A DNA stretch of 64,000 bases from a virus: positions 62,001 to 126,000 of the IMG/VR virus record IMGVR_UViG_3300035212_003113; one strand, 5' to 3'. A program made the position numbers and the translations under genes. Of this stretch, positions 577 to 48,313 are shown one piece after another (position 1 is the stretch's first letter; each line of letters begins with the position of its first letter). The notes under the pieces were generated by a model, which ran no database searches, was not told where the DNA came from, and worked only from the letters and a program-made list of their open reading frames with translations.

Positions 577-960
577 ATGCAAAAACTAGACGAGGTACTA
601 GACGCCTTGCGGGCAGAACGTGCCGATAACGACCGGCTTATCCGGGCGCTAGACAAGTCAGAGGCATATGCTGCCGACTGTGCACAGCAGTGTGGAGACC
701 TGGCAGAAGGCGTAGCGAAGGCACTAGGTATGGGCTATGTCCTTGTTGTGCCAGATGATGTCCGTATAATTGAGCGGGCAACCACTACTGTGACACAACT
801 GCGTAACGCTACCGCCCTACTCGCAGAGGCGCTAGGTCAACTAGAGACTCACTCCGGCTTTAGTGCTTATAGCAGAATTCATTCTATGGCCGGAGAAAAG
901 CTGGCCGCCCGTATACATTGCTTTCTCGGAGAACTAGATGCGAGCAGAATCAAGGACTGA
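577..960 (+). CDS. unknown protein, coiled-coil N-terminus
   Basis: 127 residues. The first 40 residues are charged and heptad-like ('LDEVLDALRAERADNDRLIRALD'-type pattern), predicting a coiled coil, followed by an Ala-rich helical tail. ATG at 577 has GGAGCG just upstream, provided by the 3' end of repeat copy 1. It overlaps the methyltransferase gene by 23 bases. No family recognised. Confidence 0.7.
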   Translation: MQKLDEVLDALRAERADNDRLIRALDKSEAYAADCAQQCGDLAEGVAKALGMGYVLVVPDDVRIIERATTTVTQLRNATALLAEALGQLETHSGFSAYSRIHSMAGEKLAARIHCFLGELDASRIKD

Positions 961-1456
961 GCGCTATCGACGCAAGCTGCCTACGGCAGACCTATTGCCC
1001 GTGGAGGTAACTAGCGTCAACTTCCGCTGCGAAGAGAATATCGCTTACCTCATCCGTGCAGCAGCTTGCTTTGGCGCATCAGCCGTAAATGTAATCGGCT
1101 CCTGTCCTCCTCCCGGATTACTGCGTGAACTTTCGGGCACTACTTCGGACTTAGTTACGATTCGTAATTTTTCCTCGCCTGGAGACTTCCTGCAATTCTG
1201 CCGCGACAACAATAGGAGAATTGTCTGCGCGGAGCTGGCAAATGATGCCACAAGCTTGCATGACTATGCCTTTGACCATAGCGCAATCACCTGTATTGTT
1301 ATTGGTCACGAGCAGCTGGGCGTTCCAGTTGACATCCTGCATCACGGCGACGTAGTGCAGATCCCAATGCCAGGCTTTGGCTACTCGCTTAATGCTGCTC
1401 AGTCCGGTAATATCATGCTTTACGAATATGCGAAACAGTTCGCGCGGAGTTGCTAA
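938..1456 (+). CDS. SpoU/TrmH-family RNA 2'-O-methyltransferase
   Basis: 172 residues, the minimal size of a SpoU (SPOUT) methyltransferase that transfers methyl from AdoMet to a ribose 2'-OH in tRNA or rRNA. Motif 1 is 'ENIAYLIRAAACFGA' (33-47). Motif 2 is 'VIGHEQLGVP' (121-130). Motif 3 is 'IPMPGFGYSLNAA' followed by 'NIMLYEYA' (142-165), which forms the trefoil knot that binds AdoMet. There is no RNA-binding extension, as in TrmL-type single-domain enzymes. It overlaps the next gene (TAATG) in an RNA-repair cluster, so a tRNA target is plausible but not shown. Confidence 0.9.
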   Translation: MRAESRTERYRRKLPTADLLPVEVTSVNFRCEENIAYLIRAAACFGASAVNVIGSCPPPGLLRELSGTTSDLVTIRNFSSPGDFLQFCRDNNRRIVCAELANDATSLHDYAFDHSAITCIVIGHEQLGVPVDILHHGDVVQIPMPGFGYSLNAAQSGNIMLYEYAKQFARSC

Positions 1457-2586
1457 TGGTTGGCTTTCATGAATCTCTCGCTGCAACACAAGCATATCTC
1501 CGCGAAGGAGGTTCGCTAGAAAGGTTTGAGAGCGAGCATGGTATTGCCGGCAAGAGCGACGGACAGCACCTCATTCTGGATTATGACCAGATCACTGTCA
1601 AGTGGACCGAGCCTTATGCCTATGCCTGTCGTGGCCTTGTGCTCGATGCGGTTACGTTTGACGTGATTGCTGCGCCAATCAAAAAGTTTTTCAACGCGGG
1701 CGAGCACTATGCAGATACTATCGACTGGAGTTCTGCCACGGTCTTTGAAAAGATTGATGGCACAATGGTCAACCGTTGGTGGAGTCCGCATACCGAACGT
1801 TTTGAATATAGTACCCGGTTTCAGTTGCCGGCTGGCCTAGAAAGCTCTGCCGTTAATTCCGGCATGATGAAGTGGGGCGATATGATTCGCCGATGCATGG
1901 CATCGCTTGACACGGCGTTTTTAGAGTCTCAGCCAAAGGACGAGACTTGGACTTTCGAGGTATGCTCGCCGCATAATATGGTTGTTGTGCGACATGCTGC
2001 TTTCTTTGCACGACTACTGGCAATCAAAAACATCCGATCTCTAGAAGAGAGGTCCGTTGCCACCAACCATTATGGTCCTAAGAACTATGCCTTTGCTAAT
2101 GCCGATGAAGTGGCTGCATTTGCAAATGCACATCCTGCTACAGAGCTAGAGGGCTTTGTAGTAGTGGACGCTGCTTTTAATCGCATAAAGATTAAGAGCG
2201 ATCAGTACGTTGCCCTCCACCGGGCCAAAGACGGCTTGCGTAGCGCCAATAATATTCTGCTGCTGGCTCGCTCAAATGACTACGAAGAAATCGTAGTACA
2301 TTTTCCTGAATACAAGGAAGACTTAGACGCAGCTACCGCCATTATCGAAGAGCTAGTTTCCAGGCACGAGGCAGCCTTCCAAAGGCACAGAGATGTGTCT
2401 TCTCAAAAAGATTTCGCAATTGCTATTGCCGCTGAGGGACTAGAGTGTACAGCGGCGCTGTTTTCTCTGCGAGCAGGCAAGGTTACCAGCATAGGGGCAG
2501 CTATTGCCGCGATGAATGAAACGGCTTTCTGCAAGTTGCTTAAACCAAGGCTTCTAGAAAAGATCGGCGCCAAGTACGCTGAATAA
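1456..2586 (+). CDS. T4 Rnl1-like ATP-dependent RNA ligase
   Basis: 376 residues, close to T4 RNA ligase 1 (374). The nucleotidyl-lysine motif I is 'FEKIDGTM' with the lysine at about residue 99. 'ACRGLVLD' (57-64) precedes it, motif III-like 'TFEVCSPHNMVVV' lies near 166-178, motif IV is 'EGFVVVD' and motif V 'RIKIKSDQYV' near 230-252. Rnl1 enzymes seal 5'-phosphate and 3'-OH ends, typically tRNA anticodon loops cut by host defence nucleases. The ATG at 1456 is preferred over TTG 1450 because GGAG (1446-1449) is well spaced and the start overlaps the upstream stop. Confidence 0.92.
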   Translation: MVGFHESLAATQAYLREGGSLERFESEHGIAGKSDGQHLILDYDQITVKWTEPYAYACRGLVLDAVTFDVIAAPIKKFFNAGEHYADTIDWSSATVFEKIDGTMVNRWWSPHTERFEYSTRFQLPAGLESSAVNSGMMKWGDMIRRCMASLDTAFLESQPKDETWTFEVCSPHNMVVVRHAAFFARLLAIKNIRSLEERSVATNHYGPKNYAFANADEVAAFANAHPATELEGFVVVDAAFNRIKIKSDQYVALHRAKDGLRSANNILLLARSNDYEEIVVHFPEYKEDLDAATAIIEELVSRHEAAFQRHRDVSSQKDFAIAIAAEGLECTAALFSLRAGKVTSIGAAIAAMNETAFCKLLKPRLLEKIGAKYAE

Positions 2587-2600
2587 GCGCTTCCGGGCGC

Positions 2601-2616
2601 CCCATATTCATATGGG
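2601..2616 (+). terminator. short hairpin after the RNA ligase gene
   Basis: CCCATA (2601-2606) and TATGGG (2611-2616) form a 6-bp stem with a TTCA loop. There is no T-run, so it may be only a weak terminator or mRNA 3'-end stabiliser before the gene at 2646. Confidence 0.35.
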
Positions 2617-2645
2617 CTTAATTCTGAAGTAAGACAGGAGGGACT

Positions 2646-2846
2646 ATGGCCGTAATAATACTTGATATCTCCCCTGCTAGCGTTCAGGTAATTCGAGACG
2701 GTTATATTGCTGAGGAATCAGCAAAGCCGCTGTCTCCCGATGATAGGGCGCTTCCAGCTCTGCAAATAGTAGAGCGGGGGCATGATAAAGCAATTCCTCT
2801 TACAGAAGATCAGATAGCAGAGCTGCATCGCAAATACCGACTATGA
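2646..2846 (+). CDS. small unknown protein
   Basis: 66 residues with a good ribosome site (CAGGAGGG, 2635-2642) before ATG 2646. The N-terminus reads as two beta strands ('VIILDIS', 'VQVIRDG') and the C-terminus as a helix ending 'AELHRKYRL'. No membrane segment or recognised family. It sits between the RNA ligase and the KEAD-motif gene. Confidence 0.7.
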   Translation: MAVIILDISPASVQVIRDGYIAEESAKPLSPDDRALPALQIVERGHDKAIPLTEDQIAELHRKYRL

Positions 2847-2864
2847 ATGCTCTAGGATAGCTCT

Positions 2865-3695
2865 ATGAAAAAGATATTAGATAGCCTTGTCGCGGCAGCT
2901 AATGCCGCTGATACTGCTGGCTTGGAAAAGCTAGCAAATGATATTGATGACCTAACGCTTTCCGTTATAGATGAAACTAAAAAATCTCCCGCTGCCAAGT
3001 TAAGCGAAATCCCTAACTGGGAAATGGGCGGAGGCTATAATAATATTATGGCCCTACTGAAAACAGCCAGCCCAGAAGAAATAGATTACTGGCGCAATTG
3101 GTATGCTAATGCTAGACAAGATGTGCAGGCATTGGCGGTTAAATATAACGAGCCTTTTGACCTAGTAGCAGCAACAGTAGCGGTACTAAGCCCTGGAAAC
3201 AATTGGAAATCTAATTTGCGGGCGGCAGAAAACCTATTGCTAGAGGTTCATGACGGCGGAAAGGGCGCGGTCGGCTCCGGCCCTAAGAAAGATAAATCAT
3301 ACGATACTTCTGACATACACAGGCAAATAGCTGAAGAAGAAGCGCCTGTTAATGTCAGATACCGCAATATTGCCGCTTATCCTGCCAATGCAGAGAAGGC
3401 TCGTAACATATTGATCACCGGAAACGTAGCTGATCATTTGACTGGGCCAAAAGTAACTATATTCTACGACAGCTTGGTACATCCCGAGCACGCTCGCGAT
3501 CATATGGTGCTTGATGGCCATGCCATAAACATTTGGCGCGGCGTTCGTGTTCCACTAAAAGGACTAAAGAGTCCTACTGATGCAGAACGAGCGGCAATGA
3601 TATCAGACTATAAGCGCGCTGCCGCAGATACTGGCCTAAGCGTACAGGAAGTTCAAGCAATTACCTGGTTTCTTTGGAAAACGGCGGAAGAATAA
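2865..3695 (+). CDS. KEAD-type N-terminal motif fused to a DUF7178-like domain
   Basis: 276 residues. The first 35 residues ('MKKILDSLVAAANAADTAGL' then 'EKLANDIDDL') match the N-termini of the proteins at 15052 and 38746: a two-helix module with pattern LxxxAxxxDxxGLxxxAxxxD. The rest contains 'AATVAVLSPGNNWKSNL' (about 106-122), 'GPKVTIFYDSLV' and 'MVLDGHAINIWRG' (about 190-225), which I associate with the phage family DUF7178. The 'K..NL..A' and 'LDGHA' spacing resembles a helix-hairpin-helix glycosylase fold, but catalytic assignment is not possible. The gene abuts the receiver-domain gene with no gap. Confidence 0.75.
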   Translation: MKKILDSLVAAANAADTAGLEKLANDIDDLTLSVIDETKKSPAAKLSEIPNWEMGGGYNNIMALLKTASPEEIDYWRNWYANARQDVQALAVKYNEPFDLVAATVAVLSPGNNWKSNLRAAENLLLEVHDGGKGAVGSGPKKDKSYDTSDIHRQIAEEEAPVNVRYRNIAAYPANAEKARNILITGNVADHLTGPKVTIFYDSLVHPEHARDHMVLDGHAINIWRGVRVPLKGLKSPTDAERAAMISDYKRAAADTGLSVQEVQAITWFLWKTAEE

Positions 3696-4073
3696 ATGAG
3701 ATTTCTTATACTGGATGACGATGCCTCTCGACACGAGGGCTTTGACTTCCTACTGCCCGGCCACAAAGTAGTTCATGCTTATAGCTATACCGATTTCGTT
3801 GCGGCTGCTAAATCACAAACATTTGATATTATTTGCCTTGATCATGATCTTGGAATAGAAGTAGATGGCGAGCAAATGATTGACAATGGCCAAGCTAGAG
3901 AACTAACTGGACAAGATGCAGCCCGCTGGCTTGTAGACAATCCTCAGCATTTTCCAGATAGCATTCTTGTGCATTCACACAATCCTGTCGGTGCTGCCGC
4001 CATTGCAGATATTCTGCGAGCGGTGCCCGGCAAGCGCGTAGTTGTCAGGCCCTATTCAGCACCTAGGAAGTAA
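3696..4073 (+). CDS. cyclic-phosphate-processing receiver-like (cREC) protein
   Basis: 125 residues in a receiver-like fold. The acidic cluster 'LILDDDASRH' is at 4-13, 'ICLDHDLG' at 46-53 and 'ILVHSHNPVGA' at 90-100. The LDHDLG and HSHNP signature marks the cyclic-phosphate-processing receiver family (PF20274-like), predicted to act on 2',3'-cyclic phosphate RNA ends, rather than a phospho-accepting response regulator. Lying between two RNA ligases it fits an end-healing role before ligation. ATG follows the previous stop directly. The activity is inferred from family and context. Confidence 0.8.
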   Translation: MRFLILDDDASRHEGFDFLLPGHKVVHAYSYTDFVAAAKSQTFDIICLDHDLGIEVDGEQMIDNGQARELTGQDAARWLVDNPQHFPDSILVHSHNPVGAAAIADILRAVPGKRVVVRPYSAPRK

Positions 4074-4074
4074 C

Positions 4075-4260
4075 ATGAATATCCGCGTTATTGCAGAGAA
4101 AGAGTTGCCTGATGGCTCCATGCAGCTCTCTGTCGAGATGGATGATGAAGCCGAGGCAACTATACTTGGGCTGTACAATGAGCAAGTACTGACCGAAGAA
4201 CTTGTGTCCCGATTTGTAATAGAAGCTATCGAGAACCATGTAGAAAAGAAAGGCAAGTAG
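4075..4260 (+). CDS. small unknown protein in the RNA repair cluster
   Basis: 61 residues starting at ATG 4075, one base after the upstream stop and preceded by AGGAAG (4065-4070). Beta-hairpin-like N-terminus ('RVIAEKELPDGSMQLSVEMD') then an acidic helix and a Lys-rich end. It resembles the many short acidic proteins that accompany phage ligases, but no family is recognised. Confidence 0.7.
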   Translation: MNIRVIAEKELPDGSMQLSVEMDDEAEATILGLYNEQVLTEELVSRFVIEAIENHVEKKGK

Positions 4261-4261
4261 C

Positions 4262-5299
4262 ATGAGAAAGCTTGCAAGCATTCAGCGGGTACTTGCGGTT
4301 GAGCCAATTGAAGGCGCAGATAAAATCGAAAAGATCAGCGTGCTAGGCTGGCAGCTAGTTGCAAAGCGTGGCGAGTTCTCTGCGGGCAATCTTTGCACTT
4401 ATTTTGAGCTCGACTCAGTGCCGCCAGATACAGAGCAATATGCTTTTCTCTGGTCTAAGCCGGGAGAGGTTATACCGCGACCGTCTGGTTGGAGGCTGCG
4501 CTCTAAACGCATGCGTGGCGTGCTTAGCCAGGGTCTTGCCCTGCCTATCTCCGTTCTGCCTGCCGGCTGCGAAGCGGTCGAAGGTCAGGACGTAACTGCT
4601 GCGCTAGGTGTAAGCAAGTGGGAGCCGGTTGTCTCTTCTTCTGCTAGAGAGATCGCGGGCGCCTTTCCGAAGCATCTATTTCCAAAGACAGACGAGCTAC
4701 GAGTACAAAGCGCGCCGGAGATCCTAGAAGAGCTGCGCGGAGTAGACTGCTATGCCGCAGTTAAACTAGACGGACAAAGCCTAAGTATTGCAAAGATTGC
4801 TGATGAGTCTGGCTCGCGGCTACTTGTATGCACCCGCAATTATTCTCTGAAAGATTTGCCTGACTCACCTCATTGGGAGGTCGCTCGTCGGCTTAATTTG
4901 ATTGAATTGCTACCAGCCGGCTTTGCGATACAAGGTGAGTTTTGCGGTCCTTCTATTCAGAGCAATCGACTAGCTCTTCGAGACAAGGCTTTTTATGCTT
5001 TCCAGGTATTCGACATCAGCAAGCAGCGCTATTTAGGTTACGATGAATTTGTACAGTTTTGCTCTGCCCGTAGTATCCCTACTGTGCCCGTAGAATGGAG
5101 AGGGGCACTTGACATAGACCTAGCAGGAGTGCTAGCTATGGCTGACGGCACTTATCAAGGCGGCCATCCAAGAGAGGGTCTTGTTATTAGGCCTGTTGCT
5201 GAGAGGATCAGCCCAGCGCTATCTGCTTATTGCGGCTCGCCCGCCCGTGCATCATTCAAGGTAATCAGCAACGCCTATCTACTAAAAATAGGCGAATGA
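4262..5299 (+). CDS. RNA ligase, DRB0094 type
   Basis: 345 residues. The N-terminal OB-like domain ('LASIQRVLAVEPIEGADKIE') is the typical start of the Deinococcus DRB0094/Rnl5 family and related viral ligases. The nucleotidyl transferase domain follows: motif I 'AVKLDGQS' with Lys168, 'VCTRN' near 190, 'GEFCGPSIQSNRL' near 226-238, motif IV 'EGLVIRP' near 305-312 and motif V 'SFKVIS' near 332. Family members seal nicks with an RNA 3'-OH in duplexes. It starts one base after the previous stop and shares an operon with an Rnl1-like ligase, so this phage carries two non-redundant ligases side by side. Confidence 0.92.
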   Translation: MRKLASIQRVLAVEPIEGADKIEKISVLGWQLVAKRGEFSAGNLCTYFELDSVPPDTEQYAFLWSKPGEVIPRPSGWRLRSKRMRGVLSQGLALPISVLPAGCEAVEGQDVTAALGVSKWEPVVSSSAREIAGAFPKHLFPKTDELRVQSAPEILEELRGVDCYAAVKLDGQSLSIAKIADESGSRLLVCTRNYSLKDLPDSPHWEVARRLNLIELLPAGFAIQGEFCGPSIQSNRLALRDKAFYAFQVFDISKQRYLGYDEFVQFCSARSIPTVPVEWRGALDIDLAGVLAMADGTYQGGHPREGLVIRPVAERISPALSAYCGSPARASFKVISNAYLLKIGE

Positions 5300-5754: not shown

Positions 5755-6323
5755 GTCCTGAGCTTGAGCAACAACTATTCCTAAAGTACAAACGCATATT
5801 CCAGACTCGGTGCGATTACTCTGGCACACCTGTTGCCCCGTCAGTCTACGCAATAGAGTGCAGAGATGGCTGGTATAACCTTATTGATCGGCTACTTTTT
5901 TCAATAAATGAGCACGTCAAGTCTGGCCGCAATCAGCGAGCACGTGACATGCGATATAATCGCGCGCTCAAGGCCGCACAGGCCGGTAACTTTCGATACC
6001 TCTATAACTACTTTCAGTTTGGAGTAAAAAGCTACAAAGTAGAGCCATGGGTTGTCGATAGAGCACACATGGAGCTACAGGCTGGCAAGATACGCGAACC
6101 GGCTCAACTGGTTAAGCAAGTCTATGTCATGCAGATAAAAGAGAAGTTTGGTACCCTGCGCTTTTACTATAACGGCGGAGACGAACAGGTAGCCGGCATG
6201 GTGGCTCTTGCAGAAGCAATGAGCGGCGTCATTTGCGAAGGCTGTGGGGCACCAGGCAGCAAGACCCGTAGCGGCTGGATTAGAGTGCTTTGCGACAACT
6301 GCAAACGCCAACCAAGTGTTTAG
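5751..6323 (+). CDS. conserved phage protein with C-terminal zinc finger
   Basis: 190 residues. The C-terminal half contains 'QIKEKFGTLRFYYNGGDEQ' (about 131-149) and then 'CEGCGAPG' and 'LCDNCK', a CxxC/CxxC zinc site. This KEKFGxLRFY plus zinc-finger arrangement is a widespread phage hypothetical family. It ends face-to-face with the minus-strand acyltransferase gene; their stops overlap by 2 bases. Confidence 0.8.
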   Translation: MSPELEQQLFLKYKRIFQTRCDYSGTPVAPSVYAIECRDGWYNLIDRLLFSINEHVKSGRNQRARDMRYNRALKAAQAGNFRYLYNYFQFGVKSYKVEPWVVDRAHMELQAGKIREPAQLVKQVYVMQIKEKFGTLRFYYNGGDEQVAGMVALAEAMSGVICEGCGAPGSKTRSGWIRVLCDNCKRQPSV

Positions 6324-7381
6324 TACCTGTATAGCTTAAATTGCGCTCGGCATGGATTGCCAGCAGCATATATAAAAGCGCGCTCTGTCGGCAAAAACAC
6401 AGTAGAAAATACCGTATGAGATTCGTTATCTCCGTGCCGACAAAGTCCGCCTAGGCCATGCGTACGCATCATTTGCAGTATCTGGGTAACGCCTATTTGC
6501 CCGCCAGCAGTCTTTATTTCTTCTATAGCTCGCTCCAGTCTGGCTCTTGAACCGGCAAGGGAGCTGCCTTCTCGCGCCTCTACTCCCGGTAAGAATATAA
6601 AGTGATTTGAATGAGCAGCTGCGCCCATGGGATGCGTAAGCTTAACAGACTTCCTAGCGCTGGCCTCCAAGCTCACTACTTCACCGGATGCGTCAGCAAT
6701 TATATTATTGAATGAGCTGGCACGATCTTCGTGTAGCAGTATTTTTTCTGCTTCTTCTATAGTCTGCGACCAGCATGCCTCTACGTAAAGAACCATACGC
6801 GGAACGCCGGGGCGAGTATCAGCTGCATCAATTTGATTGCCCGATATAACAATCCCCGCGCTATTTAAACCAATAGAGGGTCCGCCTCGGGTAAATACCA
6901 TGAAAAGACTTGGCAATCCCTTGATGCCAATCTTAAATAGGCGCGAACCTGCTCCCTCGCCTTCGTCGTTTGTATGCCCTATTATAGTTCCTGCGGCAGT
7001 GCGAATAACTATATCTGTACAGCCAGTATCTTTAAGGAGGCGGGCATCTACTGTGTCTGCAAACGTCAACTCCTCATACCACATGCAAAACGCTTCTTGA
7101 AAACTTATACCAGCACCCTCTGCTATGCCTAGTAACAGAGCGCAGGCACGGGGAGCTGCCCGCGTAGCAGAAGCTACTCCCACCTCTACCCACTCCGGAT
7201 ACTCGCGCATAAGTCGACCTATCTCGTGATCCTTGATTGACTGCCTAATCTGATCTCGGAGGGAGCGCCCTATGCTCCTGCCGGCCTTCTGTATGTTTTT
7301 GATCTTTTTGCTCATGTGCGCAGGAACTCCGGAAAAGCTTACATTGGCATCTGTTTGACTAGCTACTTGCAAATTATTCAT
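6320..7381 (-). CDS. C45-family acyltransferase/amidohydrolase
   Basis: 353 residues on the minus strand, alone among + genes. The signature 'DTGCTDIVIRTAAGTIIGHT' matches the autoproteolytic site of isopenicillin-N acyltransferase-like (peptidase C45, Ntn hydrolase) proteins, whose Cys becomes the N-terminal nucleophile. 'GPSIGLNSAGIVISGNQI', 'RPGVPRMVL', 'ASSFNNIIADASGEV' and 'HSNHFI' follow in family order. Members cleave or form amide bonds. ATG 7381 is chosen; TTG 7396 or ATG 7315 are possible. An isolated opposite-strand metabolic gene suggests late acquisition, perhaps for cell-envelope or signal-molecule modification. The substrate cannot be told. Confidence 0.85.
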   Translation of the reverse strand: MNNLQVASQTDANVSFSGVPAHMSKKIKNIQKAGRSIGRSLRDQIRQSIKDHEIGRLMREYPEWVEVGVASATRAAPRACALLLGIAEGAGISFQEAFCMWYEELTFADTVDARLLKDTGCTDIVIRTAAGTIIGHTNDEGEGAGSRLFKIGIKGLPSLFMVFTRGGPSIGLNSAGIVISGNQIDAADTRPGVPRMVLYVEACWSQTIEEAEKILLHEDRASSFNNIIADASGEVVSLEASARKSVKLTHPMGAAAHSNHFIFLPGVEAREGSSLAGSRARLERAIEEIKTAGGQIGVTQILQMMRTHGLGGLCRHGDNESHTVFSTVFLPTERAFIYAAGNPCRAQFKLYRY

Positions 7382-7419
7382 TTGCTGATTGCACAAGAAA
7401 TCGTTAATATTGTAGGTCG

Positions 7420-23976: not shown

Positions 23977-24439
23977 GTACTTTATCGAGAAACAGCGCAT
24001 AGTGCAGATAAATGCTGCGCTGCCAGCGGGCGCCCGCTGGCCAAGTCTTCATGCCGTACTAAACGCTTGCGATCAACAAATGCCAATGTTTTCGGAGCAT
24101 GAAAATAAAGAAGGTATTTTCATTGGTTGGGGATGGGCTTATCCACATGAAGGTGACGTAGACCGGTGGCTTTATCATCATACTATAACCTCTGCCTTCC
24201 GTGATGCCGGCCTGGATCGTTTTTTTGGATTCCACTATGATAGCGCAATCGAAGCAGTCCGCAGTGGAAAAATAAAGGCTACGCCTGTTTTTAGTGTGGG
24301 CAAGGTAGCAGAATCTGCCAAATTTGCACGCATACTGCGGAGTATAGGTGTGAAGGCGTATGTGAATATGCCACCACTAACGTCAGTCGAGCCATATGAG
24401 AGAAATAGTAATCACAGACATACACGGGTGCTACGATGA
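23966..24439 (+). CDS. unknown protein, MKL start
   Basis: 157 residues. 'MKLEYFIEKQRIVQINAALP', then 'GIFIGWGWAYPHEGDVDRWL' in the middle and 'AKFARILRSIGVKAYVNMP' near the end. Overlaps the phosphatase gene by 44 bases, which is long for this genome. Function unknown. Confidence 0.65.
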   Translation: MKLEYFIEKQRIVQINAALPAGARWPSLHAVLNACDQQMPMFSEHENKEGIFIGWGWAYPHEGDVDRWLYHHTITSAFRDAGLDRFFGFHYDSAIEAVRSGKIKATPVFSVGKVAESAKFARILRSIGVKAYVNMPPLTSVEPYERNSNHRHTRVLR

Positions 24440-25166
24440 GCTGAGGGCGCTTCTCAGCGAAGTTGACTTTGGCCCAGGCGACCTAATCATAGGCGCATCT
24501 GATTGCGTAGACAAAGGACCAGCATCTGCACAAGTAGTTAAGTATCTGCGACAGCTAGCTGATGCCGGACAACTAGTGCATATAAAAGGCAACCACGAAG
24601 TAAAGTTCCTTAAATTCGTTGCGCGCTATCGTAAAGATCCCGAGAGTGCAATGGAGCACAAAAGCAGCAGGGAAATGCTGCGAACACTAAGCTCACTAGG
24701 AGATGCCGACCTAGATTGGCTTTCTGAAGCCAAACTATGGCATCCTGTATCAGGATATCCGGGAATTGTGATGCATGCCGGTGTAGAGCCTGGGCTTAGG
24801 AGCTTGCCTACCACCGGCAAAGTAAAAGACAGCGAACTGGGTCATTTTAGCCAGATGATATACTGTCGCTATGTCCGTGCTGGCAAAATGGTTAGGCTGG
24901 GCGATGAAGACGACTCTTGCTCCTTTTGGGCCGACCAGTATGATGGCAGGTTTGGACACGTATTCTATGGCCATCAGCCATGGATGCAGCCAGTTCCCAG
25001 GTTAACGTCAAATACATCTGGCCTAGACCTAGGATGCGTAATGGGCGGCCGCCTAGCAGCTGCTGTTATAGAAGGAGGTAAGGTTCATTATGCCTCGGTG
25101 CCAGGGGCTGATTATGTGTCTGCCCGGCGCCAGAAAGAGAACAATGAAGACTTACCTATTTGCTGA
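24396..25166 (+). CDS. PPP-type serine/threonine phosphatase / diadenosine tetraphosphatase-like
   Basis: 256 residues. Metallophosphoesterase motifs occur in order: 'VITDIHGCYDEL' (5-16), 'GASDCVDKGP' (33-42; GDxVDRG-like with Ser-Asp instead of Gly-Asp), 'IKGNHE' (near 67-72), 'GIVMHAGVEPG' (near 127) and 'VFYGHQP' (near 190). This matches lambda-phosphatase-like and PrpE-like enzymes that use two metals to remove phosphates from proteins or nucleotides. Overlaps the exonuclease gene by 23 bases. Confidence 0.88.
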   Translation: MREIVITDIHGCYDELRALLSEVDFGPGDLIIGASDCVDKGPASAQVVKYLRQLADAGQLVHIKGNHEVKFLKFVARYRKDPESAMEHKSSREMLRTLSSLGDADLDWLSEAKLWHPVSGYPGIVMHAGVEPGLRSLPTTGKVKDSELGHFSQMIYCRYVRAGKMVRLGDEDDSCSFWADQYDGRFGHVFYGHQPWMQPVPRLTSNTSGLDLGCVMGGRLAAAVIEGGKVHYASVPGADYVSARRQKENNEDLPIC

Positions 25167-25689
25167 TATGGAATTCAGCGGCCTAGACATAGAGCTGCAC
25201 CGACCGCTAGAGATAGCTATAATTGCAACTGATAAGGCTTTTAAGTCTATCAAGACTTACTCATCAACGTTTTACTGGGAAGAGATTCAGTTTAACGAGT
25301 GGAGCGAAGAGCGGCATGCAGTATCAGGTCTACTAGACGATATATGTGACGGGCGGGATGCCGGTGACATCGATGCAGATTTGCTACGATTTTGCTCAGG
25401 CCTGAGCGGCGACTTAGTGCTAGCCGGCCAGTCTGTTCATGTGGATAGGAGCTGGATTGCGCGGTATTTGCCGCAGTTTGCAAAAAAGCTGAATCACAGA
25501 GTATTCGATCTAACTACAATAGACATGATGCTTGAAGACCGCGGATCATCTATCCGCAATCGCTCTAATGTGCATCGTGCTATGGCTGATGTTCGCGCAG
25601 CTGTAAAAAGTGCCCAGCATTATGCCGCAAGCATATCTTATTCGGCATCACTAAATGGGGTCAATATTGAATCGAGAGACAGCCTTTAA
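25144..25689 (+). CDS. oligoribonuclease-like DEDDh exonuclease
   Basis: 181 residues, the size of E. coli Orn. Exo I is 'FADMEFSGLDIELHRPLEIA' (Asp8, Glu10), Exo II 'GQSVHVDRSW' near 95-104, and Exo III 'HRAMADVRAAVKSAQHY' near 155-171 with the DEDDh His. Orn-type enzymes degrade 2- to 5-nt RNAs. ATG 25144 is chosen: it has AGAAAGAG nearby and places Exo I at the usual position. Confidence 0.88.
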   Translation: MKTYLFADMEFSGLDIELHRPLEIAIIATDKAFKSIKTYSSTFYWEEIQFNEWSEERHAVSGLLDDICDGRDAGDIDADLLRFCSGLSGDLVLAGQSVHVDRSWIARYLPQFAKKLNHRVFDLTTIDMMLEDRGSSIRNRSNVHRAMADVRAAVKSAQHYAASISYSASLNGVNIESRDSL

Positions 25690-31188: not shown

Positions 31189-31434
31189 TTGGAAGACTAC
31201 TGCATCGAGGTCTGGTTGCGCGGCAAGAAAGCCGTCAGCTACATTGGCCATCCAGAAGACATTCTTTCCAGCACAGATCCAGATCTTGTAGACTGGTATA
31301 CGCAAACAGCTGCAACACGCAAGTGGTCGATGTTCTGCGAAACATTTGATTCTCGCAAATGCAGCTCTGGTACCATGTCGCATCTCTCTGGCACAATTCG
31401 TATTTCACATAGGAAGCAAAATGACAACGTTTGA
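31189..31434 (+). CDS. small unknown protein (TTG start)
   Basis: 81 residues from TTG 31189, chosen because GAGGAG (31177-31182) is six bases upstream; TTG 31171 is an alternative. 'CIEVWLRGKKAVSYIGHPED' start. No recognised domain. Overlaps the trigger factor gene by 14 bases. Confidence 0.6.
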   Translation: MEDYCIEVWLRGKKAVSYIGHPEDILSSTDPDLVDWYTQTAATRKWSMFCETFDSRKCSSGTMSHLSGTIRISHRKQNDNV

Positions 31435-32743
31435 TCTTCGCAGCGACGAAACAACTCACCGCGTCCATGTAAAGGTGGACGCTGCTGATGTGAAGACGGC
31501 CATGGAAGAGGCTGCGCGGGGGTTGCAGGCAGTAATGGCCTTGCCTCCTCATCCGAAGGGTTCTGTCCCTATTGAGATTATTCTGAATAAGTTCTCTAGC
31601 CAGTTCCGCTCTGGCGTCACTGAGAAGCTTGTTCGCAAGGCAACTGGCGAAGCAGTATATTCGCTCGGTCTTCGTAGCGGCGCAGATCCGCAGCTAGACG
31701 AGCAGTATCGCATCTCTCCTGCAAAGCGTTGGCTCGGTGCATTTGCTGATGACGGCGGACTGGAGTTCTCGGTTAGTTGGCCAAGGCCACCTGCCGTAGA
31801 AATCCGTGATTATATTGGTATCTCTGTAGAGGTAGCACAGGGCGACAGGGAAGCTGCCATTGAAGGCCAGCTGCAAATCCTGCGTCTACAGACTAGCAGC
31901 AACAAGCTGGTAGAGCGTCCAGCAACAGCCGAAGATGTGCTTGTAGTTGACCTTGAAGGTACTGATGGCGAAGGTAATCTTCTGCACGGCGCACGGTTCA
32001 CAGACTTTGTTTTCCGCCCTAAGATGCGTGGCGGGCGAGGGTTCAGTGACAAGCTAGATCAGCTTGCCGTTGGTCGGTCGGCAGGAGAGAGCTTCTCGTT
32101 TGAAGAGAACTACCCTGACAACCACCATGACAAATATCTGCGCGGACAAAAAGTAACTTTTGCCTGTACCGTGCGGGAGGTTCGGGAATCAGTTGTGCCC
32201 GAGATCAATGACGAGTTTGCAAAGACAGCAGGATACGCTGATCTTGCAGAACTACGTGAAGCGGTGGGCAGGGAGTGGGATGCTGGCAATGAAGTAAACA
32301 TTGCCACTGCCAAGCGCAAGCAAGTTCGTAAAAAGATTGTAGAGGCGAATCCGCTGCCGGTAGACGAGGCAGTGCTCGCAGACTATTGTGGTGCTGCGGC
32401 AGAGCAATTTGGAGTAAAGTTCGAGGATTTACTTAAGGCTCCCGAGACAGCGGAGATTGCTGAGTCTATCCGTGCTGATCAGCGCGAAGTAATTATCTAC
32501 AATGAAATCCTTGATCGTGTATTTGACAGCCACGCACAGCAGCTGTTGCTGAAGGAAGCTGACATCTTGAAGTACGCCGCGGCCGAGGCACAGCACGGAG
32601 TAACAGCAGAAGAAGAGATTGCCGCAAAGCGTTCAAAGCCTGCTGCCTATTCCTCCTGGCTCCAGCGTTCTCAACGCCAGAAAGTAGCCGACTGGATTGT
32701 AGATCAGGCGGTTGTAACAAAGGTTCCTGGCAAGGAGGATTGA
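31421..32743 (+). CDS. tig: trigger factor-like chaperone/peptidyl-prolyl isomerase
   Basis: 440 residues, the full length of bacterial trigger factor. Order: N-terminal domain (1-145), FKBP-type PPIase domain (about 155-245, with 'ATAEDVLVVDLEGTDGEG' and 'LRGQKVTFACTVREVRES'), and helical C-terminal arms ('EINDEFAKTAGYADLAELRE' onward). The ribosome-docking loop, normally GFRxGKxP, reads 'KFSSQFRSGVTEKLV', so L23 binding is doubtful. AGGAAG precedes ATG 31421. Perhaps a phage-specific folding factor rather than a copy of the host's ribosome-bound one. Confidence 0.92.
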   Translation: MTTFDLRSDETTHRVHVKVDAADVKTAMEEAARGLQAVMALPPHPKGSVPIEIILNKFSSQFRSGVTEKLVRKATGEAVYSLGLRSGADPQLDEQYRISPAKRWLGAFADDGGLEFSVSWPRPPAVEIRDYIGISVEVAQGDREAAIEGQLQILRLQTSSNKLVERPATAEDVLVVDLEGTDGEGNLLHGARFTDFVFRPKMRGGRGFSDKLDQLAVGRSAGESFSFEENYPDNHHDKYLRGQKVTFACTVREVRESVVPEINDEFAKTAGYADLAELREAVGREWDAGNEVNIATAKRKQVRKKIVEANPLPVDEAVLADYCGAAAEQFGVKFEDLLKAPETAEIAESIRADQREVIIYNEILDRVFDSHAQQLLLKEADILKYAAAEAQHGVTAEEEIAAKRSKPAAYSSWLQRSQRQKVADWIVDQAVVTKVPGKED

Positions 32744-34273: not shown

Positions 34274-35548
34274 ATGCTAACTGAAAAACTTCTAGATGAC
34301 TGGATTCGTACATCGCAGAATGTACTCCTTGTCGGCCCGCATGGCATTGGCAAGACCGAGCAAGTACTGGCTGCTATGAAGCGCAACGGCATTAAGTATG
34401 CCTACTTCTCTGCCTCTACCATGGACCCGTTCGTTGACTTCGTTGGTGTGCCACGGGTAGTCGAAGATAAGACCGGCCGCTGGCTAGACTTTGTACGTCC
34501 AAAGATTTTTGCAAACAATGATGTGCAAGTGATCATCGTTGACGAGTTCAATCGTGCTCCCAAGAAGGTGCGCAATGCACTAATGGAAGCAATCCAGTTT
34601 AAGTCGATCAATGGCGTGCCGATGCCCAATCTAAAGATGATCTGGGCCATGGTCAATCCTCATGATGACGAGGATACCTACGACGTTGATCGCCTGGACC
34701 CAGCTCAGGAAGACCGCTTTCAAATCAAGGTTGTCCTGCCTAATGGCCCATCTCTCAAGTACTTCCGCGATAACTACGGAGTGCTTGGCGAGATAGCGCA
34801 CCGTTGGTGGAATAAGATTGATGAGAAGATGCGTAAGAGCAGCATTGTTTCTCCCCGGCGCCTAGAATACGCGCTACAGGCGTATCAAGCGGGCCTTGAT
34901 ATTGATTACGTTCTGCCCAAAGAAGTTAACGTAAAGGATCTTAAGACCGAGCTCAATAAGTCAGGACTTATGTCGCGGCTGCCTGCTCTCAAGAAGTTGG
35001 GCGTAGAGGATCTGCGCAAGGAGATTCAGGGCAACGGCAATCTGCGTGACCTGGTCATGCAGGAGATCCTTGAGACTAAGTTCCCGGTAGAGTTGGTCGC
35101 TGCCATGAGTGACGAGGAAATCGTCAACAAGTGCAGCAAGCCTGGTGTTCGCACGTTTATTTGCGAACGGATCAGCGAAGGCGATCCACGCTTCACTTCT
35201 ATGGCAGAGGGCGTAGCAAAGACGCCTCCTAGCAAGGCCGCTGACAAAGAGCTGGCCGAGGCCATTAAGGCTTTTGCCACTGCGCTTGAAAAGGCCAAGC
35301 TAGCGCGCCAGCGCAAGATTACGGCAGAAGCCCGCAAGCAGAATGCAGGCGCCGAAGCGCTTAAGCGCCAGCTAGGAGTTCTTTTCCAGCCTACCATTAC
35401 TCGGGAAGAGATTGTTGCTCTGCTTGAGCCCCATAAGAAAGACATCTCTGCTGACCCGGTAATGAAGGATCTGATCCTGCGCGCTACGCAGGTGGCCGTC
35501 AATCGCGAACTAATTAGCGAGGTCGCACGGTCGCTCTCGCTTATCTGA
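34274..35548 (+). CDS. MoxR-type AAA+ ATPase
   Basis: 424 residues. Walker A 'VGPHGIGKTE' (20-29), Walker B 'VIIVDEFNRAP' (86-96), sensor 1 'IWAMVNPHDD' (near 125-134) and an arginine-finger region 'PAQEDRFQIKV'. MoxR ATPases work with a VWA partner to remodel protein complexes, and that partner is the next gene. Led by repeat copy 9, with CAACGGAG as ribosome site. The C-terminal third is a charged helical extension unlike bacterial MoxR. Confidence 0.9.
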   Translation: MLTEKLLDDWIRTSQNVLLVGPHGIGKTEQVLAAMKRNGIKYAYFSASTMDPFVDFVGVPRVVEDKTGRWLDFVRPKIFANNDVQVIIVDEFNRAPKKVRNALMEAIQFKSINGVPMPNLKMIWAMVNPHDDEDTYDVDRLDPAQEDRFQIKVVLPNGPSLKYFRDNYGVLGEIAHRWWNKIDEKMRKSSIVSPRRLEYALQAYQAGLDIDYVLPKEVNVKDLKTELNKSGLMSRLPALKKLGVEDLRKEIQGNGNLRDLVMQEILETKFPVELVAAMSDEEIVNKCSKPGVRTFICERISEGDPRFTSMAEGVAKTPPSKAADKELAEAIKAFATALEKAKLARQRKITAEARKQNAGAEALKRQLGVLFQPTITREEIVALLEPHKKDISADPVMKDLILRATQVAVNRELISEVARSLSLI

Positions 35549-35561
35549 CAGGAGCTTGCCC

Positions 35562-36857
35562 ATGGAAGAAGTATTTTCGGATGACGAGTGGAACTCGCTG
35601 GCCAAGAGGCTAGAGGATTTTCACTCGGTTTTTTCAAAGTTCTGGTCCATGGGCAAGCCGACTGTTACTCGCGACATCCCTACTTGCGCGGTAGCATTTG
35701 ACAAGGCCGGGCAGCAGATCATGTGGTCTGTTAATCCTGACTTCTGGGAAACGCTTTCAGACGATGGCAAGCTGTTTGCAATTGCGCACGAGTGTATGCA
35801 TGTTGTTTTTAGCCATGGCGTGCGCAGTACCGAAATGCTTAAGAACATAGATCCTCAGATCATTAACGTTGCGATGGATATCGCAGTCAACTCTCATCTT
35901 GAGAGTCACTATGGTTTCGAGCGCGCGGCAGTAGAGCCGCCCGGCGTGCGCTATATTTGGTTAGACGAGGTACTGCCCGGAGAACAAGCTGGACGAGCTT
36001 TTGAGTACTATGTAGAGGCTCTGCTAAAAGACAATCCGCAGTGCCAGTCAAAGAGTGGCGACGGAGATCCTACGACTGTTGATGATCACGGCGGACTAGG
36101 CGACTTTACGGGCGGCGATCTAGCTGATATGCTAAAGCGCACGCTTGACTCTGGTACTACAGAAGACCTAGCAGATATGGCCCAAGATGACGCCAGCGAT
36201 GATATGAAGAAGAAAGCCGCTGCTGTTAGCAAAGGCATTAAGCCCGGCAACAATCCTGGCAATACTGTGCTCGAGATTACTTCTGCTAAATATCTGCGTC
36301 GCAAGCCAAAGTGGGAGACTGTTGTCAAGAAATGGTCGATGCGAGCACTAGAGGAATATGCAGAAGTTCCTAGCTGGACGCAGCCTTCGCGCAGGCTTGA
36401 TCCCAATATGATGGGTGACTGTATCTTGCCTTCTCCCGGCGAGCAGGAAGGCGACGGAAAGAACAGGATTCGTGTATCGTTTTTTCTGGATACAAGCGGT
36501 AGCTGTATTAGCTATGCCACCAGGTTTTTTCGTGCAGCTGGTACCCTGGATCCACGCAAGTTTGACATCAAGCTATACTGCTTCGATACCAGAGTTTATG
36601 ACACAGATCTAAAGAGCGCCAAAGTCTATGGTGGCGGTGGTACTGCTTTCTCTATTATCGAGAGACGGATTCAAAAAGAAATGGCTGACAAGAGCACTTG
36701 CTATCCCGATGCAGTCTGGGTACTGAGTGATGGTTATGGCGATACTGTTCGACCAGAAAAGCCAAAGCGCTGGCACTGGTTCCTGACAGAGGGCGGCTCA
36801 CGCGACTACGGCATCCATCCCGAGTCCAATGTCCATCATCTTAAGAATTTTGAGTGA
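35562..36857 (+). CDS. DUF2201-type metallopeptidase-like/VWA protein
   Basis: 431 residues from ATG 35562 with CAGGAG (35550-35555). The N-terminal domain has 'FAIAHECMHVVFSHG' (72-86), the HExxH zincin-like motif of DUF2201_N, with 'VAMDIAVNSHL' after it. The C-terminal domain is VWA-like, 'RVSFFLDTSGSCISY' (near 305) with a DxSxS MIDAS. DUF2201 proteins are regularly encoded next to MoxR ATPases. Together they form a predicted chaperone-like remodelling pair also seen in large phages. Confidence 0.88.
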   Translation: MEEVFSDDEWNSLAKRLEDFHSVFSKFWSMGKPTVTRDIPTCAVAFDKAGQQIMWSVNPDFWETLSDDGKLFAIAHECMHVVFSHGVRSTEMLKNIDPQIINVAMDIAVNSHLESHYGFERAAVEPPGVRYIWLDEVLPGEQAGRAFEYYVEALLKDNPQCQSKSGDGDPTTVDDHGGLGDFTGGDLADMLKRTLDSGTTEDLADMAQDDASDDMKKKAAAVSKGIKPGNNPGNTVLEITSAKYLRRKPKWETVVKKWSMRALEEYAEVPSWTQPSRRLDPNMMGDCILPSPGEQEGDGKNRIRVSFFLDTSGSCISYATRFFRAAGTLDPRKFDIKLYCFDTRVYDTDLKSAKVYGGGGTAFSIIERRIQKEMADKSTCYPDAVWVLSDGYGDTVRPEKPKRWHWFLTEGGSRDYGIHPESNVHHLKNFE

Positions 36858-36860
36858 AGT

Positions 36861-37607
36861 ATGACCTGGAATTCAGACGCAGAAGGCGCAGGGGCACGGA
36901 CATTTCGAAACAGCTTTGTTGCCAGGTTTGATGGCAAAGGCTTCTCTCGTCTTGTTCGGTCTCCTGAATTTGTTGCCCCTTTTGACAATAGCATCTGTCA
37001 AAGCATGCACGCAGCAACCGACTGCATAATCAAGCATCTTACTCCTGACTTTGTGTATCAAGTTTCGGACGAGATAAGTGCTTTTTTTATAGCACGTCCA
37101 GAGGCCGGATCTCAGCTGCCGTTTGGCGGCAAAGAATCCAAGGTATGCAGTATTGGTGCTTCGGCGGCAGGCACCGCATTTTCTCTCGCGCTAGGCAAAT
37201 CCGCGCTGTTTGATGGGCGAGCATTCGACTGCACAGCAGATCAAATGCCTGATTATCTTGCTTCCCGGCTGAAGTCTGGCTTCAAGAATAGTGTTAGTCA
37301 GCTAGCCGGCGAGCACTTTTCTGCCAAGTCTCTGCATTGCAGGAACAGCGCGGAAAAGCTACAGATGCTTGCAGACGCGGGAATAGATTACAATGGCATG
37401 CCCGAAGACTTTAAATATGGGCGAATTTGGTATAAGGAAAAGCAGCAGGTCTGGAGCGATGTTGCAGGCGAGCATATTCAGCGCAGTCGCTGGACCAGTA
37501 CCGCGCTATACTCGCAGCTGAGTCAAGCGGCCTTCTCCGAGTTAAAGCGAACTATATCTGAATTGGATGGGCGGGCCGGGCCTAAAGTCGACCCCGCCCG
37601 ATCCTGA
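36861..37607 (+). CDS. Thg1-like 3'-5' RNA polymerase (tRNA-His guanylyltransferase family)
   Basis: 248 residues. 'FVARFDGKGFSRL' (19-31, metal Asp24), 'VYQVSDEISAFF' (65-76, Asp70-Glu71) and 'DYNGMPEDFKYGRIWY' in the C-terminal half are Thg1 signatures. Thg1-like proteins add nucleotides in the 3'-5' direction and can repair 5'-truncated tRNAs. The last 13 codons are translated from repeat copy 10 and the stop TGA is in its GATCCTGA loop, so the original C-terminus may have been lost. Confidence 0.85.
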   Translation: MTWNSDAEGAGARTFRNSFVARFDGKGFSRLVRSPEFVAPFDNSICQSMHAATDCIIKHLTPDFVYQVSDEISAFFIARPEAGSQLPFGGKESKVCSIGASAAGTAFSLALGKSALFDGRAFDCTADQMPDYLASRLKSGFKNSVSQLAGEHFSAKSLHCRNSAEKLQMLADAGIDYNGMPEDFKYGRIWYKEKQQVWSDVAGEHIQRSRWTSTALYSQLSQAAFSELKRTISELDGRAGPKVDPARS

Positions 37608-45182: not shown

Positions 45183-45653
45183 ATGAAGAAATATAACGCA
45201 TTTGCATACTGCACATTTCCTGCTGAAATAGAGAGCGCATTTCCGCGGTTTGGACGTATTCTTAATGACGACTTTACCCGTCCGCATGCCTCTCTTGTCT
45301 ATATACCAGGGCTTAGCGCAAGTGAAGTTGGCAAAGTCGCCGCTGCCGTAGAGATGCTGGCAAAACGTTTGCAGCCATTTCAGATATCATTTGGAGACAC
45401 TAAGTGCTTCGAGTCAAACAGTGATAGCGTTCCATGGTATGTAGAAGTAAAGGGCGAAGGTTTCCTGCGATTGCGGGAGGCGTTGCTTTCCGTCATTGAT
45501 TCGCTCGATGTCGAAATAAATGAGAAATTTGACAGCTTTGTTCCACATGCCACGCTACAATACATGAAGCCAGGCGAGAGTTATGAGGGCAAATCGCCGT
45601 CAGGCGATTGCACCATAAGTGATGTTCACTTTGCCTTCAAAGAAGCAGAGTAG
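45183..45653 (+). CDS. 2H phosphoesterase (2'-5' RNA ligase/cyclic phosphodiesterase family)
   Basis: 156 residues with the two HxT/S motifs 'PHASLVYI' (about 34-41) and 'PHATLQYM' (about 121-128), spaced as in the 2H superfamily. T4 NrdC.1, bacterial ThpR and related enzymes cut 2',3'-cyclic or 2'-5' linkages. With two RNA ligases and a cREC protein elsewhere in the window, a role in RNA end processing or in defusing oligoadenylate-type signals is plausible. Confidence 0.85.
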   Translation: MKKYNAFAYCTFPAEIESAFPRFGRILNDDFTRPHASLVYIPGLSASEVGKVAAAVEMLAKRLQPFQISFGDTKCFESNSDSVPWYVEVKGEGFLRLREALLSVIDSLDVEINEKFDSFVPHATLQYMKPGESYEGKSPSGDCTISDVHFAFKEAE

Positions 45654-47386: not shown

Positions 47387-48313
47387 ATGCTAGGAGTATG
47401 CTGCCAGTGGTTGAATGTCGTTCCTACAAAAACTGGTGAAAAATATGTTAACGCCCTAGGTGAACGCGCGCTTCAACTAGGGCGTTACTCTTCTGGCGCA
47501 TATACGCCGGAACACATAGCTGATGTATGGCTCGGTAATGTAAAAGGTTTGGCCAACATTATACCTACGGTACGCAGCGCCGGCGTAGGTATGTTTAGAG
47601 TGGGCAGCACGCTGCTGCCGCTCTTTGATAAGATCGCAGAGAGCCCGCTTAAAGGCCTGGTCGCAGATGCGGAGTCAGAACTGCGCAAGGTAGGCGCCCT
47701 CACTAACGGTATGAGGCTGACCACTCACCCCGGTCAATTCGTAGTAATTAGCTCGGATTCTGATACGGTCGTAGCTAACTCTGTTCGTGAGCTAGAGTAT
47801 CACGCATTTATCATGGACTCTCTAGGGTGCGCCGCAACGCCGCGGTTTGCAATAAATATTCATGGTGGCAAGCGAGATCGCGGAGATCGCTTGGTTGCTT
47901 CAATTAAGTCTCTGCCTAATTCAGTCCGATCCCGCCTTACGCTAGAGAATGACGAGAATTGCTGGTCTGTCGCTAACCTGCTGCCGATTTCTGAGCAAAC
48001 CGGCGTTCCGATTGTCTTCGACTCTCATCATCATCCATTTAATGATGGCGGTCTAACCGGCGAGGCAGCAATGCTTGCTGCCGCAAGTACGTGGCCAAGC
48101 GACATAAGACCGCTACAACACCTTAGTAATACAGAGCCCGGCTTTGAAGGCGGCTCATTTACAGAGCGCCGACAGCATAGCTGGGCAATTCATTATGTAC
48201 CGGATTATCAGCGAGACTTCTATCTAGCCGGTAAATCGGACATAGAGATGGAGTGCAAAGGCAAGAATCTAGGCTTTATTCCGTATGTAGATGCCCTCGG
48301 CATCTATTTATGA
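47387..48313 (+). CDS. uvsE: UV damage endonuclease (UVDE)
   Basis: 308 residues, the length of bacterial UvsE. Conserved metal-ligand motifs occur in order: 'MRLTTHPGQFVVISS' (near 109), 'FAINIHGGKRDRG' (near 157), 'LTLENDENCW' (near 184), 'IVFDSHHHPF' (near 206) and 'DIEMECKGK' (near 285). UVDE nicks 5' to UV photoproducts in an alternative excision repair path. GAGGATAA precedes the ATG. Uncommon in phages. Confidence 0.93.
   Translation: MLGVCCQWLNVVPTKTGEKYVNALGERALQLGRYSSGAYTPEHIADVWLGNVKGLANIIPTVRSAGVGMFRVGSTLLPLFDKIAESPLKGLVADAESELRKVGALTNGMRLTTHPGQFVVISSDSDTVVANSVRELEYHAFIMDSLGCAATPRFAINIHGGKRDRGDRLVASIKSLPNSVRSRLTLENDENCWSVANLLPISEQTGVPIVFDSHHHPFNDGGLTGEAAMLAAASTWPSDIRPLQHLSNTEPGFEGGSFTERRQHSWAIHYVPDYQRDFYLAGKSDIEMECKGKNLGFIPYVDALGIYL

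Follow-up and report, generated by a model that had tools for sequence, protein, structure and literature searches.

The cREC (cyclic-phosphate-processing receiver) family was named by Iyer et al. 2021 (PMC7824862), who predicted a role in cyclic-phosphate processing and reported operonic links with RNA ligases, and neighbourhoods with a sirtuin, a T4-like tRNA ligase, cREC, a nucleotide kinase, MazG and a calcineurin-like protein have also been described (PMC9503650). That cREC is an RNA-end processor tied to ligases is a prediction already proposed in 2021–2022 (PMC7824862, PMC9503650). Here we describe a cluster in which a cREC gene lies among RNA ligase genes of two families, at positions 938–5299 of a 64,000-nucleotide window (bases 62,001–126,000 of the 371,675-bp IMG/VR virus record IMGVR_UViG_3300035212_003113; coordinates of the whole record, which was searched by family profile and by four stretches, are prefixed G000). 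The cluster reads, in order, with supporting matches and their E-values in brackets:

938..1456, + strand: SpoU/TrmH-type 2'-O-ribose RNA methyltransferase, SPOUT family (PF00588, 1.7e-19; TrmH-family matches in the PDB)
1456..2586, + strand: Rnl1-type RNA ligase (phrog_562, 2e-40; PF09511, 5e-8; T4 Rnl1 2c5u, 2e-6)
2646..2846, + strand: small open reading frame (ORF) of 66 amino acids (no Pfam or PHROG match)
2865..3695, + strand: DUF7178 protein with a predicted Ogg2-like helix-hairpin-helix (HhH) glycosylase fold (PF23802, 4e-29; structure model)
3696..4073, + strand: cREC protein (PF20274, 7e-16; alignments; receiver-fold model)
4075..4260, + strand: small ORF of 61 amino acids between cREC and the Rnl5-type ligase (sequence; no Pfam or PHROG match)
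4262..5299, + strand: Rnl5/DRB0094-type RNA ligase with an OB domain and a nucleotidyltransferase domain (PF21189, 5e-28; PF09414, 1e-26; phrog_968, 7e-60; TIGR02306, 2e-43)

The genes are tightly packed: the SpoU stop codon and the Rnl1 start codon overlap (TAATG), and the DUF7178 stop codon abuts the cREC start codon (TAAATG). Like the jumbo-phage linkages (PMC7824862, PMC9503650), the locus combines cREC with neighbouring RNA ligases in a large phage, with the same predicted clearing of 2',3'-cyclic ends, and a kinase and a calcineurin phosphatase are also encoded in this genome; it differs in that its kinases lie far away and, which is new relative to these reports, in that two ligase families stand together with SpoU and the Ogg-like DUF7178 partner in one cluster, in a record in which SIR2 was not found. 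As in the T4 Pnk/Rnl1 tRNA repair system (pseT, rnlA), an Rnl1-type ligase and a Pnk-type 5' kinase are present, but the kinase here lacks the HAD 3'-phosphatase domain, and the 3' step would fall to a separate cREC, Swiss-army-knife (SAK) HAD, 2H or calcineurin protein. Bacterial Pnkp/Hen1 likewise brings together a 5' kinase, a metallophosphatase, a ligase and a 2'-O-methyltransferase in one genome, and here too one ligase adjoins the methyltransferase; however, the parts are unfused in our record, the methyltransferase is SpoU/TrmH rather than Hen1, and the ligases are of the Rnl1 and Rnl5 types. The second ligase shares its OB domain and nucleotidyltransferase with the Rnl5 enzymes of Deinococcus (DRB0094) and Naegleria gruberi (5cot, 7e-51), but stands in a phage context with DUF7178 and cREC and scores below the TIGR02306 cut-off.

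We lean slightly towards reading the cluster as a nucleic-acid repair module of the phage, by which broken RNA is healed and sealed: cREC would act on the 3' side, a kinase on the 5' side, and the ligases would join the ends. In this scheme cREC would open or remove the 2',3'-cyclic phosphates that metal-independent nucleases leave behind, or the phosphates that result; the 5' phosphate would come from a stand-alone Pnk-type kinase whose gene lies outside the cluster, in another part of the genome, and the 3' work would perhaps be shared by SAK-type HAD, 2H or calcineurin phosphatases. Rnl1 would seal single-stranded breaks, for example cut anticodon loops, the Rnl5-type ligase would close duplex nicks, and SpoU may mark RNA via 2'-O-methylation. 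The identities and order of the genes, the intact motifs, the receiver fold of the cREC model and the repeated kinase–Rnl1–cREC operons of other viruses are observations; the chemistry of cREC, the division of labour between ligases and phosphatases, the tRNA substrate and a counter-defence role we infer. Nicks in duplexes are in part indicated as well, by the Rnl5 ligase and the Ogg-like DUF7178 protein.

The clustered proteins

The cREC protein scored 59.1 bits against PF20274 (cut-off 27) and is the sole match to this profile in the 371,675-bp record. All residues invariant in six divergent phage members are kept, including D7, D8, D49, H50, D51, T71, G72, H93, S94, N96 and G99, as are the positions invariant across a 34-member alignment. 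The structure model showed a receiver fold (pLDDT 84.4), with the best Foldseek matches to response regulators (E 1.2e-5), and the window protein accordingly combines both features of the family, the receiver fold and the conserved acidic and HSxN residues. Its active-site residues are intact, and on fold and motif it is predicted to be active. An alternative suggested by this signalling-receiver fold is that cREC has no enzymatic activity and serves as a sensor or regulatory subunit, binding RNA ends or cyclic nucleotides and controlling or recruiting the ligase. The presence of other healing enzymes in the genome is in line with such a role, as is the lack of conservation, in the few alignment rows that extend so far, of the lysine with which the last strand of true receivers ends; yet no histidine kinase partner was seen, and the retention of the acidic and H-S-x-N residues across very divergent members is more like catalysis, so that we consider a purely regulatory cREC very unlikely.

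The partners of cREC were identified with similar clarity. SpoU scored 70.7 bits against PF00588 (cut-off 29.7), and its motifs NIAYLIRAA, GHEQLGVP and SLNAA align with TrmH-family structures (5kzk, 2e-9; 1v2x, 2e-6). Among the viral loci searched, no phage relative of SpoU was found beside ligases. The Rnl1-type protein scored 33.4 bits against PF09511 (cut-off 28.3), and its KxDG, EGFV and KIKSDxYV motifs match those of T4 Rnl1 in the alignment to 2c5u. With 56.6 bits it stays far below the 242 bits required by the T4 RnlA equivalog profile TIGR02308, and by sequence the ligase at 1456 is Rnl1-like and not a T4 RnlA equivalog. The OB and RNA_ligase domains of the Rnl5-type protein exceeded their cut-offs (PF21189, 97.9 bits; PF09414, 94.6 bits), and the TIGR02306 equivalog cut-off was narrowly missed (148.5 versus 151.15 bits). 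In structure-sequence comparison this protein is closest to the Naegleria gruberi RNA ligase, to which it aligned over nearly its full length with KLDG, QGE and REGLV in register. The Naegleria gruberi enzyme seals nicks in duplexes.

The grouping of SpoU, an Rnl1-like ligase, cREC and a DRB0094-type ligase made by an initial annotation from sequence alone was thus borne out by profile and alignment matches; every gene it named was recovered, but DUF7178, the small ORFs of the cluster and a calcineurin-like phosphatase (see below) had been missed. Its interpretation as an RNA repair cluster with cREC gains from the intact active-site residues and from the kinase–Rnl1–cREC operons found in other viruses, and the tRNA anticodon specificity that it suggested is putative.

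The window contains a single exact copy (540–565; chance 0.00) of the motif CCTAAARAC-N(5-18)-GATCCTG, immediately 5' of the ORF at 577, the leading gene of the cluster. Nineteen copies occur 5' of most genes in a stretch of 60–67% GC at about 10795–19786 of L201 (G000:340001–360000), which also contains the second kinase of the record. The feature resembles either a promoter or processing signal or an island of foreign, GC-rich DNA.

Other candidate RNA-end enzymes in the record

Outside the cluster, the window encodes further enzymes of this kind:

24396..25166, + strand: calcineurin-like phosphatase (ApaH/PrpE/Pnkp-phosphatase-like), a candidate accessory end-healing enzyme (PF00149, 1e-11)
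25090..25689, + strand: DEDD 3'-5' exonuclease, oligoribonuclease (Orn)-like (PF00929, 7e-8; NF003765, 5e-22, below cut-off)
36861..37607, + strand: Thg1-like 3'-5' polymerase (PF04446, 1e-16; phrog_4717, 6e-32)
45183..45653, + strand: 2H phosphoesterase (PF13563, 2.5e-9)

The 2H, Thg1-like and Orn-like genes had been noted from sequence and are confirmed by these matches. The calcineurin-like gene, which overlaps the Orn-like gene, matched best to NF001204 (ApaH, 2e-22) and then to TIGR04075 (the phosphatase module of bacterial Pnkp, 4e-16), neither match reaching its cut-off. Directly 5' of the Thg1-like gene, an AAA_3 (MoxR-like) ATPase is followed by a DUF2201 putative metallopeptidase (34274–36857).

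In the rest of the record, two stand-alone Pnk-type 5' kinases (G000:354224 and G000:4179) scored above the cut-off of PF13671 (AAA_33; 60 and 56.5 bits). They match the T4 Pnk family phrog_505 (4e-12 and 8e-12, respectively), and both are 30–41% identical to the operon kinases of other viruses described below. No match to HAD_PNKP (PF25109), the fused 3'-phosphatase of the T4 type, was found in the 371,675-bp record. A 170-amino-acid protein (G000:27087–27599, N-terminus MTPLLLLDFDGVLNA) matched the Swiss-army-knife RNA-repair HAD profile PF18143 weakly, over 138 of 139 positions and with a DFDGVLN motif, but below cut-off (20.3 versus 27.5 bits), and is a weak candidate SAK-HAD phosphatase only.

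The initial annotation had seen no T4 Pnk and had regarded a Pnk or phosphatase gene elsewhere, together with a cREC inactive on RNA ends, as evidence against its reading. Genes of the first kind are present, namely the two kinases, the weak SAK-HAD candidate and the calcineurin phosphatase, and only the fused HAD_PNKP is absent from the record. Since other candidate end-healing enzymes are encoded in the record, cREC need not be the healer: the proposal that it replaces end healing does not hold for the step as a whole, and a partial role remains. For the opening of cyclic phosphates cREC has a competitor in the 2H protein of this genome, implying that the two use different substrates or back up each other.

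cREC and Rnl1 loci in other viruses

Scans of viral contigs with the single cREC or Rnl1 protein found no relatives, and alignment queries were needed. The cREC alignment retrieved at least 298 relatives, of which 80 were kept for analysis of their neighbourhoods; 29 of these loci contain Rnl1, Rnl5 or a Pnk-type kinase within 8 kb. For Rnl1, 80 loci were likewise examined; as the anchor alignment was drawn mainly from cREC-linked operons, the fractions that follow describe that Rnl1 branch and not all Rnl1, and the window Rnl1 is distant from it (about 21–25% identity over long alignments). A stand-alone Pnk-type kinase of 128–184 amino acids was present in 74 of the 80 loci. cREC was found in 48. 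In 46 of these it follows Rnl1 on the strand of that gene, at 41 loci with reading frames that overlap and at five about 0.8–1.1 kb away; in the other two it lies upstream of Rnl1. When Rnl1 was clustered at 80% identity, kinase accompanied 36 of 41 clusters and cREC 20 of 41.

These kinase–Rnl1–cREC operons are compact and readily assayed test cases for the 2021–2022 prediction, better than the window itself. Should cREC indeed heal RNA ends, it would be a case of a receiver fold converted to a repair enzyme, and the widespread phage operon of stand-alone kinase, Rnl1 and cREC would be an identifiable counter to tRNA-cutting defences.

An ORF of about 105–140 amino acids is conserved in many of these loci. 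It often lies 3' of cREC in kinase–Rnl1–cREC operons (for example L120 7571–7912 and L138 7007–7405) and directly 3' of Rnl1 in eight loci without cREC; the members scanned had no Pfam or PHROG match.

Several observations weigh against an end-healing role of cREC in a repair module. The family is experimentally uncharacterised, with no member of measured activity (PMC9503650), and the other candidate healers of this genome (kinases, SAK-HAD, calcineurin and 2H) could do the work. About half of the Rnl1 clusters have no nearby cREC, and the SpoU–Rnl1 pairing of the window is absent from the other viral loci examined. HAD_PNKP exceeded its cut-off in two of the 32 Rnl1 loci without local cREC, one of which has cREC elsewhere; it did so in none of the 48 Rnl1–cREC records, many of which are fragments, and because HAD_PNKP is rare in both groups this is not a significant displacement signal. 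We therefore do not claim that cREC excludes HAD_PNKP. An apparent anti-correlation between cREC and a nearby calcineurin phosphatase (6 of 48 versus 13 of 32 Rnl1 loci, p = 0.007) was likewise dropped, as p rose to 0.23 with clusters at 70% identity.

Further such observations concern nicotinamide adenine dinucleotide (NAD). The cREC genes of Aeromonas phages and of Serratia phage BF have NAD-metabolism genes as neighbours: those of the former adjoin nicotinamide mononucleotide (NMN) adenylyltransferase, and that of the latter is a Nudix fusion lying next to Sir2 and NAMPT. These arrangements would fit a counter-signalling enzyme that processes small cyclic nucleotides derived from NAD or ADP-ribose (ADPr), with ligase proximity being incidental, and both RNA ends and such nucleotides have been proposed as substrates by those who described the family (PMC7824862, PMC9503650). 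With the probes used, however, NAD genes were absent from all 80 cREC-anchored loci, in which RNA ligases and kinases are frequent. The search for SIR2, which found none in the record, unlike the published V5/Mydo sets, cuts both ways, as it sets the locus apart from those sets and also argues against a function in NAD or ADPr signalling, which we judge quite improbable here.

DUF7178 and its association with cREC and Rnl5

The DUF7178 model (pLDDT 75.5) is mostly helical and matched the Ogg2 8-oxoguanine glycosylases SsOgg and MjOgg with a VIA-align Z of 10 (169 aligned residues and a root-mean-square deviation of 4.1 for SsOgg). In the fold search, 38 rows of HhH glycosylases preceded the first unrelated fold (Z 4.5), whereas sequence comparison with solved structures returned only noise and no Ogg match. 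A GPK...LDGHA pattern is invariant in the alignment of 10 homologues and would fit, by position, the Lys and Asp of the Ogg family. DUF7178 also occurs as a domain inside very long multidomain phage reading frames of about 880–2040 amino acids (L204, L210, L213, L214 and Virus Rctr197k, L031).

The DUF7178–cREC–Rnl5 triad is a rare arrangement, found twice. On the second contig, L023, a 2H-like gene, DUF7178, Rnl5 and cREC lie within 5.6 kb, with a kinase about 4.3 kb beyond; the triad spans at most 2.7 kb, in an order that differs from the window, and its members are 45, 41 and 32–33% identical to those of the window. The 2H-like protein of this contig (7067–7468) matches the cyclic phosphodiesterase domain of fungal tRNA ligase (PF08302, E = 0.002, below cut-off). 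At the 13 DUF7178 loci other than these two, cREC and Rnl5 were both absent nearby.

The abutting DUF7178 and cREC genes, the recurrence of the triad, a fold match far above unrelated folds together with the invariant GPK...LDGHA, and the closeness of the ligase to the Naegleria gruberi enzyme, known for duplex-nick sealing, raise the possibility that DUF7178, cREC and Rnl5 form a separate unit for base-excision or strand-break repair. A glycosylase/lyase would remove damaged bases and leave blocked 3' ends, cREC would clean these ends and Rnl5 would close ribonucleotide-containing duplex nicks, while Rnl1 and SpoU would be an independent tRNA-directed unit. We regard such a split as unlikely: only two viruses carry the triad, cREC occurs at one of 14 other DUF7178 loci and DUF7178 at none of the 80 cREC-anchored loci, DUF7178 is often part of large multidomain proteins, its sequence matches no Ogg of solved structure, and the fold match was obtained with a mostly helical model, for which middling Z values are common.

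The single repair module favoured above could also be taken further. cREC might represent a new class of nucleic-acid 3'-end healer on a signalling receiver fold, replacing the Pnk HAD domain in the kinase–Rnl1–cREC operons of many phages. In this phage it would in addition be linked with the Ogg-like glycosylase and an RNA ligase that seals nicks, so that damaged RNA or RNA/DNA would undergo excision and sealing in one pathway. This extended version seems doubtful to us.

Other features of the record

The tRNA search found no tRNA genes in the window and five in the whole record (Thr, Met, Ser, Leu and Gln). Among the other genes of the window are those for a protein with an acyl-CoA:6-aminopenicillanic acid acyltransferase domain (AAT, NTN hydrolase; 6320–7396, − strand; PF03417, 5e-14), a protein with a trigger factor N-terminal domain (31346–32743; PF05697, 2e-14) and a UvdE UV-endonuclease (47387–48313; PF03851, 7e-49).

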